From Dehalococcoidia bacterium (GTDB lineage: Bacteria; Chloroflexota; Dehalococcoidia; Dehalococcoidales; UBA1222), in NCBI GenBank assembly GCA_003597995.1, contig QZJY01000007.1, forward strand, positions 1 to 54,136: a stretch of 54,136 nucleotides of DNA, read 5' to 3'. Every line of letters starts with the position of its first letter. The stretch's first letter is position 1. Positions 3,279 through 49,869 of this stretch are shown one piece after another. The translations under genes were made by a program, and so were the position numbers. A model generated the notes under the pieces. That model had not been told where the DNA came from, ran no database searches, and worked only from the letters and a program-made list of their open reading frames with translations.

Positions 3279-3397
3279 ACTGCCCTCCTCAACTCCGAGC
3301 CATTTTAGGATGAGAGCAAGGATATGTCAAAGGAGCTTCAAAAGTATAAGCTGACAAGCCGCTGCGATTGCCGCGTCGCGAGGGAATCAGAAACCTT

Positions 3398-3502
3398 CTC
3401 CCCTTGGAAAGGGGAGATAAGAGAGGGATTCAAAAGGCAATTTGATAGGCTCCAGCCGATAAGAATCTCCCTTAATCCCTCTTTTCCAAAGAGGGAAATT
3501 AC
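3398..3502. repeat. Dispersed stem-loop repeat (CCCCTTGGAAAGGGG type)
   Basis: Two short hairpins, one around CTCCCCTTGGAAAGGGGAG at 3399-3417 and a second, inverted-like one at 3474-3500 (CCCTCTTTTCCAAAGAGGG), flank about 60 bases. Related copies occur near 11.2, 12.1, 16.5, 19.2, 26.6, 31.9, 45.8 and 53.9 kb, always between genes or at gene ends. This is the main content of the 3279-3608 gap. Confidence 0.75.
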
Positions 3503-3608: not shown

Positions 3609-5420
3609 TTGAACTATCCCGACCGCCTGCTCTACCAGGTCACCAGGCCCGCCCGCTACACCGGCGGCGAGTTGAACATTATCCGCAAGGACTGGGGCAA
3701 AACGCCCCTTAAATTTGCGCTGAGCTACCCCGACACTTACGAGATAGGCATGTCCAACATGGCCGTCGGCATACTCTACGAGCAGATAAACGCCCGCAGC
3801 GACTCCCTGGCCGAGCGCGTTTTCGCCCCATGGACGGACATGATGCGGGTGCTGAAAGAGAATCAAATGCCGCTGGTCAGCCTGGAGAGCGGGCATTCGC
3901 TGGCGGAGTTCGACGTGGTGGGCTTTTCGCTGGGATATGAGTTCACCTTCACCAACATCCTCGCCATGCTCGACCTGGCATCGATTCCGGTCTGGTCGCA
4001 TGAACGAAACGACTCGCACCCGCTGGTCATCGCCGGAGGCAGCGCCGCACTCAACCCGGAGCCCATGGCCGACTTCATAGACCTGTTCGTCATCGGCGAA
4101 GCGGAGGAACTGTTGCCCGCGCTTGTCGACCTTCTCATGCAACATAAGAGAAAAGACGGCAAACTGGACAAGCAGAAACTCCTCAAGGCGGCGGCCAAAC
4201 TGCCCGGCGTCTATGTTCCCAGTCTGTACGAGGTCGGCTATGTCGACGGCAAGTACCAGACCCTGACTCCGCTTGTCCCCGAGGCTCCGGCGAGAATCAG
4301 GCGTCAAATAGTCTCGAAGCTCCCGCCCCCTCCCGTCAAGCCCGTCGTGCCCTACATCGAGGTGGTGCACGACCGCGGCGCGGTGGAGATAGCGCGGGGC
4401 TGTTCGCACGGCTGCCGCTTCTGCCAGGCCGGCGTCATCTACCGCCCGGTGCGCGAGAGGCCTAAAGATGAGATTGTGAAGGCCATCGGCGAGATTATCG
4501 AGAACTGCGGCTACGATGAAATGTCGCTGGTATCGCTTTCCACCGGAGACTATTCTCAGATAGACGACCTGGTATCTGACATAACGCGGGCTTACAGCAG
4601 CCAGATAGCCCTGTCGCTGCCCAGTCTGCACCTAGACGCCCACTCGGTGAAGCTGGTGGACTCGCTGCCCGGCCGGCGCAAGAGCGGCCTCACCTTCGCC
4701 CCTGAGGCGGGTTCTGCCAGACTTCAGCGCGTCATCAACAAGCACATCCCGGAAGAGGAAGTGCTGGCCACCGCCGCCATGGCCTTCGAGCGCGGCTGGA
4801 CCACGCTCAAGCTGTACTTCATGCTGGGGCTGCCCACCGAGACCGACGCCGACATCGAGGGTATCATCGACCTCGTTATCAAGGTCAAGGCGCAGGGGAG
4901 CAAAGCGCCGGGAAGAACCCCTCAAATACGGCTGACGCTGTCCACCTTCGTGCCCAAGCCGCACACTCCCTTCCAGTGGGCGGCGCAGGAGAGCGAGGAA
5001 AACCTTTTACGCCGTCATGAGATTCTGAAGCGCACGCTGGGCAAGCGCGGCGTCAAGCTCTCCTGGCAGGATACGCGGGTGAGCCTGCTGGAAGCGGTCA
5101 TCTCGCGCGGGGACAGAAAAATCGGGCGGGTAATCCACCGTGCCTGGCAGATGGGGGCAGTATTCGACGGCTGGAGCGAGTGCTTCAACTTCGAGATATG
5201 GCAGAAGGCCATGCAGGAGGAAGGCATAGACCCGGATTTCTACGCCCGCCGCGAAAGGCCGCTAGACGAGCCGCTGCCCTGGGCGCACATAGACACGGGC
5301 GTGTCAGACGAGTTTTTGAAAAGGGAGTACAAGGCTGCCGTGGCCGGCGAGCTTACCCCAGACTGCCGTACCGAAGGCTGCAACCTCTGCGGGCTGGAGG
5401 GGCTGGGGGTGGGGTGCTGA
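3609..5420 (+). CDS. Radical SAM protein, TIGR03960-like, with N-terminal B12-binding-like region
   Basis: The 603-residue protein carries the radical SAM cluster motif C265-x3-C269-x2-C272 (ARGCSHGCRFCQAG). The N-terminal 200 residues (SYPDTYEIGMSNMAVGILYEQIN, then VIAGGSAALNPEPMADFIDLFVIGEAEE) match the cobalamin-binding-like half of the TIGR03960 family. Members of this family often neighbour or fuse to DUF2344 and may be linked to tRNA or cobalamin-dependent methyl chemistry, but the reaction is not established and no DUF2344 gene is visible here. The start is TTG 3609 behind GAGGAG at 3596-3601. The C-terminus ends in a small cysteine cluster (CRTEGCNLCG) that may bind an additional metal. 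Confidence 0.88.
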   Translation: MNYPDRLLYQVTRPARYTGGELNIIRKDWGKTPLKFALSYPDTYEIGMSNMAVGILYEQINARSDSLAERVFAPWTDMMRVLKENQMPLVSLESGHSLAEFDVVGFSLGYEFTFTNILAMLDLASIPVWSHERNDSHPLVIAGGSAALNPEPMADFIDLFVIGEAEELLPALVDLLMQHKRKDGKLDKQKLLKAAAKLPGVYVPSLYEVGYVDGKYQTLTPLVPEAPARIRRQIVSKLPPPPVKPVVPYIEVVHDRGAVEIARGCSHGCRFCQAGVIYRPVRERPKDEIVKAIGEIIENCGYDEMSLVSLSTGDYSQIDDLVSDITRAYSSQIALSLPSLHLDAHSVKLVDSLPGRRKSGLTFAPEAGSARLQRVINKHIPEEEVLATAAMAFERGWTTLKLYFMLGLPTETDADIEGIIDLVIKVKAQGSKAPGRTPQIRLTLSTFVPKPHTPFQWAAQESEENLLRRHEILKRTLGKRGVKLSWQDTRVSLLEAVISRGDRKIGRVIHRAWQMGAVFDGWSECFNFEIWQKAMQEEGIDPDFYARRERPLDEPLPWAHIDTGVSDEFLKREYKAAVAGELTPDCRTEGCNLCGLEGLGVGC

Positions 5421-19133: not shown

Positions 19134-19212
19134 TCCTCTCGTCGTTGCGAGACTTTGATAACATGGGGGTGGAACATGATAGAGATTCTTATTGGCAGGA
19201 GCCTATCGATTT

Positions 19213-19260
19213 GCCTTAAGAATCCCTCTCTTATCTCCCCTTTCCAAGGGGAGAGGTTTT
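19213..19260. repeat. Dispersed stem-loop repeat copy
   Basis: AATCCCTCTCTTATCTCCCC then TTTCCAAGGGGAG, the reverse orientation of the 3398 copy, in the short gap between dinB and the PAS gene. Confidence 0.7.
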
Positions 19261-31807: not shown

Positions 31808-31985
31808 ACTCTCACCCTCACCTACACCTCTCCCGTCAAGGGAGAGGAGCGATTACGTACCGTCGTTTTTCCCTCTTTTCCAAAGAGGGATTAAGGGAGA
31901 TTCTTAATGGCTGGAACCTCTCGAGTTGCCTATTTAATCCCTCTCTTATCTCCCCTTTCCAAGGGGAGAGGGTCCACCAAAGGAG
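31808..31985. repeat. Cluster of dispersed stem-loop repeats
   Basis: Contains CTCACCCTCACCTACACCTC, CCCTCTTTTCCAAAGAGGG and AATCCCTCTCTTATCTCCCC with TTTCCAAGGGGAGAGG, i.e. the same order of units as the 3398 copy in reverse. No gene. Confidence 0.7.
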
Positions 31986-46027: not shown

Positions 46028-46222
46028 CTAGCTCTTTATCTCCTTTACACGCCCCACCTGCCCGCTCACCAGGCGCACCTTGATGCCGTGGGGGTGGGTA
46101 GGGGAGTTGGTCAGAATGTCCCTGACCACGCCCTCGGTGAGTTTGCCGCTCTGCTGGTCAGCCTTGAGCACAATGGCAACCTTCATGCCGGGCTTGATGC
46201 TGGAGCGCTGATTACCGTTCAC
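46028..46222 (-). CDS. YwbE family protein
   Basis: The 64-residue protein matches YwbE (TIGR03833): RSSIKPGMKVAIVLKADQQSGKLTEGVVRDILTNSPTHPHGIKVRL. It is a small beta-barrel protein with unknown function, often annotated as a DUF2196 protein. It lies alone among repeats. Confidence 0.88.
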   Translation of the reverse strand: MNGNQRSSIKPGMKVAIVLKADQQSGKLTEGVVRDILTNSPTHPHGIKVRLVSGQVGRVKEIKS

Positions 46223-46497: not shown

Positions 46498-46752
46498 TCA
46501 GAACTTGAAATGCACGAAAATCCGGCCGAAGTTCTTGTCATCCTTCTCCAGCCGGTGATACAGCTTTTTCACCTGCGGCTCTGCCAGAAAACGCAGAACG
46601 CGCTTTTTGAGCTGCCCTGAACCCTTGCCGGGGATTATCTCTACGAGCGCAATCCTCTTACTCACCGCATCGTTGATGACGCGGTTGAGCTCGGCGTCTA
46701 TCATGGAGCCGTTGTTGAAGCAATCGTGCAAGTCCAGGACGATTTTAGCCAT
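46498..46752 (-). CDS. Small Smr-domain protein, second copy
   Basis: The 84-residue protein is an Smr domain: IVLDLHDCFNNGSMIDAELNRVINDAVSKR and IIPGKGSGQLKKRVLRFL, where the usual HGxGxG is PGKGSG. Its own 5' end and promoter segment recur as truncated copies at 47904 and 49646 (see repeats). A TGTAAT -10-like element lies only a few bases ahead of ATG 46752. Confidence 0.82.
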   Translation of the reverse strand: MAKIVLDLHDCFNNGSMIDAELNRVINDAVSKRIALVEIIPGKGSGQLKKRVLRFLAEPQVKKLYHRLEKDDKNFGRIFVHFKF

Positions 46753-46790
46753 AGCTATAGATTACAGGATTGGCGGAAGAATAACTAATA
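46735..46790 (-). repeat. Direct-repeat module, copy 1 (promoter plus 5' end of the Smr gene)
   Basis: On the minus strand CGCCAATCCTGTAATCTATA is followed by ATGGCTAAAATCG. Two other copies in the same orientation at 47935-47990 and 49669-49715 keep the AATCCTRTAATCTATA core and the start of the coding part. Confidence 0.75.
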
Positions 46791-46862: not shown

Positions 46863-47777
46863 TTAAACCACAACGGTCAACGCGGATGGCATCACCGAAA
46901 ATGACGCAGGAGCTTCCCCGAGGATTTCTCCATCGGCCTCTACGAGCAGTCGCTCATCGGACTCAATCGTGACAACTGTTACCTTTCTCTCTTTTATTTT
47001 AGGATGTCCGATGTGACTCCCATCGTAAACTGTTGGCACAATCCTCAGCAGTTCAGATTTGCTGACATCACCTACGGTCACTAAGTTCAACAAGCCGTCG
47101 TCTAGCCTGGCATGGGGAGCTATCTGCATTCCGCCTGCAAAGTATTGTCCATTGGCTACTACCACATAACAGCCTAGAAAATTCTCGTGTTTATTTCCTA
47201 CGACAAGTCTAATCCACCTGTTCCGATGGGCAACCAGGGCGCTGTAGCCCGTGATAGTGCGAAGCCTGTAATTGATACTGTGCCCAAACAGTTTCGGCAA
47301 TCTGCTCCAAGCGTTCACAATGGCAGCCCCAAAACCTGCGCTGGCTTCATTTACAAAAAAGCGCTGCAGGCGTCGTCCTTGGTTCCAGCATTCAACCATG
47401 CCAACGTCTATCGAAATCGTTTTCCTATTGACCAATAAAGAAGCGTAATCCTGGGTGATACCAAGCGAACGGGCAAAACTGCTCGCGGTTCCCGTGCTGA
47501 ACATGCCAAGAGTCACATCGCTCGAATTGGTTGAACGTAATATGCCATTGGCCACCTCGTTTATGGTTCCGTCACCACCAGCGGCTATAAGGTAGCGATA
47601 GTCAGCGTCGATAGCTCGTTTGGCTATTTCAATCGCATGACCCGGGCCTCTTGTGAATTCATAGTCAAACGATAAGCCAGTGTCACGCAGGTGCGTGTAG
47701 ATATGTGGCCAGTGCCTGCGGATTGAGCCACCACCCGCTACCGGATTGATAATTACTTTGGCACGCGATAATGTCAT
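46863..47777 (-). CDS. Diacylglycerol kinase-like lipid kinase
   Basis: The 304-residue protein has the DAGK catalytic pattern: IINPVAGGGSIRRHW at the start, AAGGDGTINEVANGI (GGDGT) and GTASSFARSLGI. It phosphorylates diacylglycerol or a related lipid, like DgkB/YegS. The NAD kinase fold is shared, but length and motifs favour the lipid kinase. It sits between two of the direct-repeat modules. Confidence 0.92.
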   Translation of the reverse strand: MTLSRAKVIINPVAGGGSIRRHWPHIYTHLRDTGLSFDYEFTRGPGHAIEIAKRAIDADYRYLIAAGGDGTINEVANGILRSTNSSDVTLGMFSTGTASSFARSLGITQDYASLLVNRKTISIDVGMVECWNQGRRLQRFFVNEASAGFGAAIVNAWSRLPKLFGHSINYRLRTITGYSALVAHRNRWIRLVVGNKHENFLGCYVVVANGQYFAGGMQIAPHARLDDGLLNLVTVGDVSKSELLRIVPTVYDGSHIGHPKIKERKVTVVTIESDERLLVEADGEILGEAPASFSVMPSALTVVV

Positions 47778-47903: not shown

Positions 47904-47990
47904 TTAGTGAAGGATGTTATTGAAGCAGTCGTGCAGTGACAGAACGATTTTAGCCATGGAGATAGATTACAGGATTGAGGGCGGAATGAC
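47904..47990 (-). pseudogene. Truncated copy of the Smr gene 5' end (direct-repeat module, copy 2)
   Basis: ATG 47957 reads MAKIVLSLHDCFNNILH and stops; the full gene reads MAKIVLDLHDCFNN. The upstream segment CAATCCTGTAATCTAT is kept. After residue 14 similarity ends, so this is a remnant of duplication. Confidence 0.75.
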
Positions 47991-48071: not shown

Positions 48072-48728
48072 ATGGACAAAAAATCGAAGGGGATTGAGAT
48101 TGTGCGCGGGGCGGCAAGCGCAGGCTATTCCGTGAAATCCGGTGGAATCAGTGTGCATACTGAAGGACAGAAGATAAACCTGCATTTCGACAGCCAGCAA
48201 GGTTACGTTTATCTTGTTATTGACTGTTCTGCCAGCATGAGCGGGTACAAGCTGGAGCAGGCGAAGAAGGGTATCATCGATTTCGCCAGAGATGCGATTA
48301 AGAAAGAGTATCTTGTCGGCCTGATATCGTTCGATTCAGAAGCAAGTCATCTTTGCGAACCGGTCCGTGATATGAAAGTGCTTCAACCGTGCCTTCAAAA
48401 CCTGGTACCGGGCGGAACGACAAATATGGCTGATGCAATTAAGCTGGCGCACACGCGCTTAAAGCTATTTGACGGCAGCCGTGCTATTGTAATCGCAACC
48501 GATGGACAAGCCGATGATGAGCAGGCTGCCTTATCAGCCGGCAAACAAGCCAGGAGTGAGGGTATCGACATTATCACAATCGGCACTGATGACGCAGATA
48601 GGGAATTTCTGCAGAATCTTGCCACGCGAAAAGAGTTGGGGTCTAAGGTAGCTAGAGAGCAGTTCGCAAAAACAATTGCTTCGGCATCCAACCTCTTGCC
48701 GCCGCCCAGGGGAATCATAAGGAAGTAG
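48072..48728 (+). CDS. von Willebrand factor A domain protein
   Basis: The 218-residue protein has a VWA domain with a full MIDAS: D51-C-S-A-S55 (VIDCSASMSG), the threonine in GGTTNMADAI and the aspartate in IATDGQAD. Residues 1-45 precede it (GGISVHTEGQKINLHF). There is no signal peptide, so it acts in the cytoplasm, probably as a metal-dependent protein-binding module. It is followed after 12 bases by a J-domain gene, and the two are surely cotranscribed. The gene lies between direct-repeat modules 2 and 3. Confidence 0.85.
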   Translation: MDKKSKGIEIVRGAASAGYSVKSGGISVHTEGQKINLHFDSQQGYVYLVIDCSASMSGYKLEQAKKGIIDFARDAIKKEYLVGLISFDSEASHLCEPVRDMKVLQPCLQNLVPGGTTNMADAIKLAHTRLKLFDGSRAIVIATDGQADDEQAALSAGKQARSEGIDIITIGTDDADREFLQNLATRKELGSKVAREQFAKTIASASNLLPPPRGIIRK

Positions 48729-49461: not shown

Positions 49462-49484
49462 AAAAAACCTCCGTTGTAAGGAGG
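49462..49484 (-). terminator. Terminator of the SAM riboswitch expression platform
   Basis: On the minus strand CCTCC-TTACAAC-GGAGG followed by TTTTTT (49467-49462). It lies 32 bases beyond the aptamer, the usual place for a SAM-I off-switch. Confidence 0.8.
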
Positions 49485-49515
49485 CTAAAGCCCTCTTTTT
49501 CGCTTTGTAAGCGGC

Positions 49516-49614
49516 CTATCGTTTCCCTTGCGGGATGGCTTTGGCACCTTTAAGAAAGACTAAAGGTTGCCGGGTGGGTCACAGGGCCATAACCCTCGCC
49601 ACCACTCTCGATAG
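49516..49614 (-). ncRNA. SAM-I riboswitch (S-box) aptamer
   Basis: On the minus strand P1 is CTATCG (49614-49609) pairing with CGATAG (49521-49516). Between them are the S-box hallmarks in order: GAGAGTGGTGG, GAGGGTTATGGCCC, TGTGACCCACCCGGCAACC, a P3 hairpin (CCTTTAG...TTAAAGG), GGTGCCAAAGCC and a small P4 (CCCGCAAGGG). SAM-I aptamers bind S-adenosylmethionine and usually switch off methionine or cysteine genes. Here no gene on the minus strand follows; the downstream DNA is the reverse strand of the J-domain and VWA genes. Confidence 0.92.
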
Positions 49615-49642
49615 TTAATATATTCAGTTGTTAATCACAAGT

Positions 49643-49671
49643 ATTCTACGCTACCTGCGCTCGAATGGCAA
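49643..49671 (-). promoter_or_regulatory. Promoter of the orphan SAM riboswitch transcript
   Basis: On the minus strand TTGCCA (49671-49666), 17 bases, TAGAAT (49648-49643). Predicted start near 49636, some 20 bases before the aptamer. Confidence 0.65.
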
Positions 49672-49715
49672 CTTTAGTCATAGGTATAGATTATAGGATT
49701 GGGGGCAGAATAATT
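49646..49715 (-). repeat. Direct-repeat module, copy 3, feeding into the riboswitch
   Basis: On the minus strand CCAATCCTATAATCTATACC precedes ATG 49681, which reads MTKVAIRAQVA and stops at 49646. It is a third, more decayed copy of the Smr 5' segment. Its TATAAT could provide a second promoter for the riboswitch RNA. Confidence 0.65.
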
Positions 49716-49869
49716 ACTTTGTGCGACGCGAGTGGGGCGCGAGAGGCCGGAGGAGATGGGAGAATCATGGGTGCGCTGGAAGTGCAGGTTTGGATTTAGA
49801 CTGCGGAAAGCAGAAATTCCCTTCTATTGCTATTCTTTTCTGTTGATGATTCGTTTACAGAAGTGGATT

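Follow-up and report, generated by a model that had tools for sequence, protein, structure and literature searches.

Why does a complete SAM riboswitch stand where no gene follows it, and does it act on the operon that it faces? The riboswitch lies on the minus strand of a 54,136-nucleotide contig from a Dehalococcoidia bacterium (this whole stretch is called the window here) and points at the 3' end of two genes encoding a VWA-domain and a J-domain protein (VWA/J). The initial annotation proposed that RNA read through from the riboswitch at low SAM controls these genes as an antisense RNA, and as an alternative it named an orphan whose methionine gene had been lost. Three genomes carry the comparison: that of the window (G000), another genome of the same genus (G001) and a genome from another genus (G004).

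The Rfam model RF00162, which the initial annotation had suggested running on the minus strand, matches 49617-49513 (-) significantly, with 49.8 bits (E 1.7e-8; gathering score 44.4 bits) over positions 1-108, the full model. This places the aptamer in the SAM-I family. It is the single SAM riboswitch of G000; no further one was found genome-wide (1.8 Mb, 95.5% complete). Promoter, S-box aptamer and terminator follow one another within 49671-49462, in the order that had been described from the first reading (Table 1). A sigma-70-like pattern alone is at chance level (6 found versus 4.6 expected). The G001 counterpart of the promoter, TTGACA-17-TATAAT, has the same distance to its aptamer as the TTGCCA-17-TAGAAT of the window and is the better match. 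The RNA of 49640-49455 (-) folds with a z-score of -2.95, and only one of 200 shuffles folds as well or better. The terminator T1 and the antiterminator (AT) hairpins both use GCCTCC and are mutually exclusive, forming an expression platform of the SAM-I kind. Promoter, aptamer and antiterminator/terminator look able to work still, and transcription of the unit and SAM binding by its aptamer are predicted. By analogy with SAM-I biology, RNA polymerase would start near 49636. Bound SAM would close P1, withhold the antiterminator strand and favour T1, and T1 formation would release a free RNA of about 175 nt. Without SAM some read-through would be possible; with the weakened antiterminator described below, termination would probably be the usual outcome.

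Table 1. Features of the riboswitch locus and its neighbourhood (window coordinates)
Feature	Position	Strand	Evidence or remark
Promoter-like site	49643..49671	-	-35 TTGCCA, 17-nt spacer, -10 TAGAAT (sigma-70-like)
SAM-I (S-box) riboswitch aptamer	49513..49617	-	RF00162, full-length match
Small P5-like hairpin after P1 (CGC-TTACAAA-GCG)	49501..49513	-	folds; kept in G001 and G004
Purine tract AAAAAGAGGGC	49490..49500	-	antiterminator strand; candidate P3-loop partner (PK-2-like)
Intrinsic terminator T1 with T-run	49462..49486	-	AGCCTCC-UUACAAC-GGAGGUU
J-domain (DnaJ) gene convergent with the riboswitch; product has a C-terminal hydrophobic segment	48741..49451	+	PF00226; homologues in eight genomes
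VWA-domain gene	48072..48728	+	PF00092; neighbour of the J gene in eight genomes
Diacylglycerol-kinase-like (YegS) gene	46863..47777	-	PF00781, PF19279
DUF2196 (YwbE) gene	46028..46222	-	synteny; PF09962 for the G004 homologue directly behind the orphan riboswitch
Degenerate Smr 5'-end copy that borders the riboswitch upstream	49673..49716	-	86% identical to 46744-46787
Degenerate Smr 5'-end copy separating VWA from DAGK	47916..47986	-	82% identical to 46711-46778

Behind the terminator, the claim that no sense gene follows was borne out. The minus strand holds only mechanical open reading frames, antisense to the J and VWA genes, until 47777, where the first recognisable minus-strand gene, a diacylglycerol-kinase (DAGK)/YegS lipid-kinase gene about 1.7 kb away, starts. 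A cis-regulated sense gene directly downstream, which is usual in the SAM-I family and not part of the definition of the aptamer, is thus missing in the window.

The origin of the unit is indicated by gene order in the sister genome, a comparison that the initial annotation had called for. In G001, a riboswitch with terminator that is 90% identical to that of the window stands 173 nt upstream of metK2, a second SAM synthetase gene located between fabF and a methylthiotransferase gene. G001 holds metK and metK2, while G000 and G004 (95.5% and 77% complete assemblies) each hold the usual metK only, which is about 54% identical to metK2. At the position of metK2, both have two short HicAB-like genes instead, and no remnant of metK or of a riboswitch was found at this locus in either genome. 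The HicAB-like pairs (G000:C58 33281-33825; G004:C12 7213-8159) were assigned by sequence reading alone; a Pfam scan in this stretch, covering one opposite-strand reading frame only, gave nothing. Judged by gene order, the riboswitch of the window sits elsewhere than the metK2 locus of the G001 type, and tblastn found no metK fragment near it within the window.

G004 carries an orphan riboswitch as well, 88.6% identical to that of the window over riboswitch and terminator. The first recognisable gene behind it encodes DUF2196, on the same strand and beginning 226 nt past the aptamer. In G000 the DUF2196 gene is also on the strand of the riboswitch, about 3.2 kb downstream, and gyrB lies further on in both genomes. 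The shared DUF2196/gyrB side suggests a common old position of the riboswitch in G000 and G004, although in G004 the contig breaks off 0.6 kb before the riboswitch and its two flanks are on different contigs. Because the 90% identical element of G001 leads metK2 and G000 is without metK2, the element of the window would be a metK2 leader without its gene. Thus, we consider it probable that the element is a displaced metK2 leader, that metK2 is gone and that the antisense arrangement is incidental. The orphan that the initial annotation had offered as its second choice is supported in this form, the closest relatives of the element leading a gene that G000 does not have.

The surroundings of the unit show how it may have come to face another operon. 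The 5' end of the Smr gene, together with sequence upstream of it, is present in three direct copies, one intact (46711-46787) and two degenerate (47916-47986 and 49673-49716). These copies border stretches of inserted genes, as if insertion upstream of Smr had been repeated. The two remnants flank the stretch of VWA/J plus riboswitch, and the DAGK stretch lies between the remnant at 47916-47986 and the intact Smr gene. In G001, genes for an MBL-fold protein, Smr and DUF2196 stand side by side, with no VWA/J, DAGK or riboswitch between them. Given these remnants and the uninterrupted order in G001, the arrangement in the window would most simply be the product of insertions upstream of Smr. 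Loss of metK2 from G000, together with these insertions, would then have left the riboswitch unit facing the VWA/J operon.

Control of the VWA/J operon by SAM, with read-through at low SAM giving an RNA antisense to the J and VWA genes, has the geometry in its favour. The riboswitch is directly convergent with the operon and lies opposite its 3' end (J stop codon 49451; terminator 49486-49462 (-)), so that about 10 nt would separate the 3' end of its RNA from the stop codon of J. There is also a precedent in the ubiG operon of Clostridium acetobutylicum, at whose 3' end a SAM riboswitch on the opposite strand controls an antisense RNA (PMC2940859, PMC9943018), a case that the initial annotation had cited. 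However, the ubiG operon converts methionine to cysteine and its antisense RNA has been demonstrated, whereas the VWA/J genes encode VWA and DnaJ domains only, with no evident SAM-related role or other metabolic link to the ligand, and their relatives are without riboswitch. VWA and J genes are adjacent in eight other related Dehalococcoidales genomes (L052-L059), none of which gave an RF00162 match. Conversely, G004 has the orphan riboswitch and no VWA/J pair, only a distant DnaJ match. Conserved antisense control of VWA/J is therefore rejected, since pair and riboswitch each occur without the other. Furthermore, the purine tract of G000 has one G deleted relative to G001, and because of this one-base deletion the antiterminator needed for read-through is weaker (-6.5 kcal/mol in G000 versus -10.8 in G001). 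Constitutive termination as a consequence was considered and found not decisive, as AT minus T1 is +2.1 kcal/mol in G000 and +2.2 to +2.4 in some metK-linked elements. The antisense relation is best explained as incidental, with no comparative support for control, and we regard SAM-controlled antisense regulation, the main proposal of the initial annotation, as very unlikely. Even such a reading would add a further member to a kind already described, that of antisense-acting riboswitches, with two experimental cases and 292 computationally predicted candidates (PMC9943018); AspocR of Listeria is a B12 example. As an observation on the operon itself, the J proteins of the VWA/J pairs are 46-55% identical over their N-terminal 130-190 residues; the J domain and the part after it are common to them, and the C-terminal parts differ between genomes.

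A displaced leader that is purely a relic should decay, yet the unit is 90% identical to its G001 counterpart and has changed no more than that gene-linked copy. Among polarised sites, 4 of 139 have changed in G000 and 10 of 145 in G004, compared with 6 of 141 for the G001 copy, which is still linked to metK2. The core is intact, and riboswitch plus terminator are 90% identical to those of G001 and 88.6% to those of G004. Four-fold degenerate sites are saturated: compared with G000, gyrB shows 48% identity at these sites in G001 and 60% in G004, and recJ shows 43% and 44%, respectively. Therefore, unconstrained sequence would be close to unrecognisable across these splits. Local sequence has also diverged more. 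Relative to the intact copy, 13 of 71 and 6 of 44 sites are changed in the two Smr remnants (together 19 of 115), against 4 of 139 in the riboswitch (Fisher p = 2e-4, or 0.014 against the adjoining remnant alone), in a comparison chosen post hoc that assumes that the riboswitch became an orphan roughly when the Smr copies arose. The identity of 90%, the four changes and the saturated four-fold sites point to a constraint that either still acts on the unit or did so until a short time ago. Any one of three histories could account for this conservation: metK2 was lost recently and separately, the unit was acquired horizontally, or a function has been retained.

What a retained function might be can be read in more than one way. 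The unit may have been kept after metK2 loss as a free-standing SAM-responsive small RNA, in which either the roughly 175-nt RNA or its terminator would have an effect. That two genera keep promoter, aptamer and terminator although no met gene follows is consistent with this, as is the slow evolution of the unit relative to the local degenerate sequence and the saturated four-fold sites. In G004, moreover, aptamer and T1 are preserved, whereas the adjoining second hairpin, which G001 and most relatives have behind T1, is degenerate. In Listeria monocytogenes, the terminated SAM riboswitch SreA acts in trans by pairing with another mRNA (PMC8079631). Both would be terminated SAM riboswitch RNAs with the potential of a free small RNA, but SreA keeps its own cis operon and has a trans target that was shown (PMC8079631), whereas the free-RNA role of the window's unit is putative. 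Recent loss of metK2 would give equal conservation, and the G004 copy stands directly before the DUF2196 gene, where an ordinary cis target is possible. We take such a small RNA as a tentative possibility, and it is doubtful that a riboswitch which has lost its gene for good is maintained in two Dehalococcoidales genera as a SAM-responsive, free-standing small RNA gene that has a promoter and a terminator of its own.

The position before DUF2196 in G004 leads to another reading, in which the riboswitch controls or formerly controlled in cis, possibly at a distance, the downstream DUF2196/YwbE, Smr and DAGK genes, from which later insertions separated it in the window. That DUF2196 lies on the strand of the riboswitch in both genomes, starting 226 nt after the aptamer in G004 and about 3.2 kb downstream in G000 with gyrB beyond, would fit. 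Against it, 1.7 kb of antisense sequence precedes the first sense gene of the window, and G001 has the Smr-DUF2196 pair without riboswitch. We know of no link between DUF2196 and SAM. This cis control is improbable in our view. Exaptation of the element as a terminator of the convergent VWA/J operon, by way of the plus-strand antiterminator hairpin followed by CTTTTTC, appears extremely unlikely. A terminator-like site does lie on the plus strand at 49478-49498, 3' of the J stop codon, but the hairpin is weak there (-6.4 kcal/mol), the conservation of aptamer and promoter would be left unexplained, and G004 is without a convergent VWA/J operon.

The displaced metK2 leader thus would be mostly an ordinary evolutionary leftover, though an unusually well preserved one, and the riboswitch of the window presumably has no dedicated local target. 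Here a metabolite switch would have outlived its gene, since at least two genomes without metK2 would retain an intact leader of metK2. If selection still acts on the unit, it would serve as a test case when free-standing riboswitch RNAs are studied. Should it instead be a recent leftover, it shows that facing another operon does not in itself make a riboswitch an antisense regulator, a caution for surveys that infer antisense regulation from position alone.

Orphans of this type are met elsewhere in the order. The RF00162 search gave 20 SAM-I elements in 18 of 156 Dehalococcoidales genomes; 11 lead metK or ahcY-metK and the other nine do not. Those without metK behind them are the elements of the window and of G004 (DUF2196), G010, G036 (DUF2958), G046, G105 (NUDIX) and G109, the second copy of G049, and one copy of G126 (an MFS-like transporter by sequence reading). 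With nine of 20 elements in this group, a SAM-I element lacking a met gene behind it is not rare in Dehalococcoidales. A pattern scan of a genome collection matched only five contigs, all from relatives already identified. The contig of G049 (L046) holds two SAM-I riboswitches (2171-2277 and 3661-3766), one before metK and the other after metK and before a gene for an uncharacterised protein of 207 residues.

Compared with the metK-leader type of SAM-I (RF00162), the element of the window has the same order of aptamer, promoter and terminator parts and its closest relative is the metK2 leader of the same genus, but no metK or other sense gene lies directly downstream. It also differs from this type in its small hairpin and in a candidate P3-loop pseudoknot, both of which resemble SAM-IV and SAM-I/IV. 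In most relatives of the order, the antiterminator purine tract that follows the small hairpin is complementary to the P3 loop (UCUUUCUU and variants). Pseudoknot PK-2 of SAM-IV and related riboswitches has this topology (PMC6890682). With the register set by hand, 88.5% of the cells pair, three pairs have changes in both partners, and one of 500 shuffles reached the covariation score. A partner-swap test for coevolution of P3 loop and linker was less positive, with P = 0.03 for all 20 elements and 0.19 for the 17 with this platform. These values are suggestive of a P3-loop pseudoknot in the SAM-I elements of the order, which we treat as a candidate. In G000 the one-base deletion leaves a mismatch in this pairing. 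The SAM-I/IV model RF01725 matched neither G000 nor ten other relatives, unlike the G004 orthologue, which exceeds the cut-off (41.6 versus 41.1 bits) in a match that extends over the post-P1 hairpin and the tract able to pair with the P3 loop.

Two further observations were made on the leaders and on the window. In many Dehalococcoidales SAM-I leaders, a second hairpin with a T-run follows about 10-100 nt after T1 (L037, L041, L042, L044, L045, L048, L051, L132); the copy of the window is without it. GATAG(C) is conserved in the loop region of this hairpin and complements the P1 5' strand (GCTATC), and the hairpin could be a second terminator coupled to P1. In addition, a dispersed repeat occurs three times in the window, at 3391-3498, 19182-19259 and 31868-31973, in copies of about 80-106 bp that are 88-91% identical.
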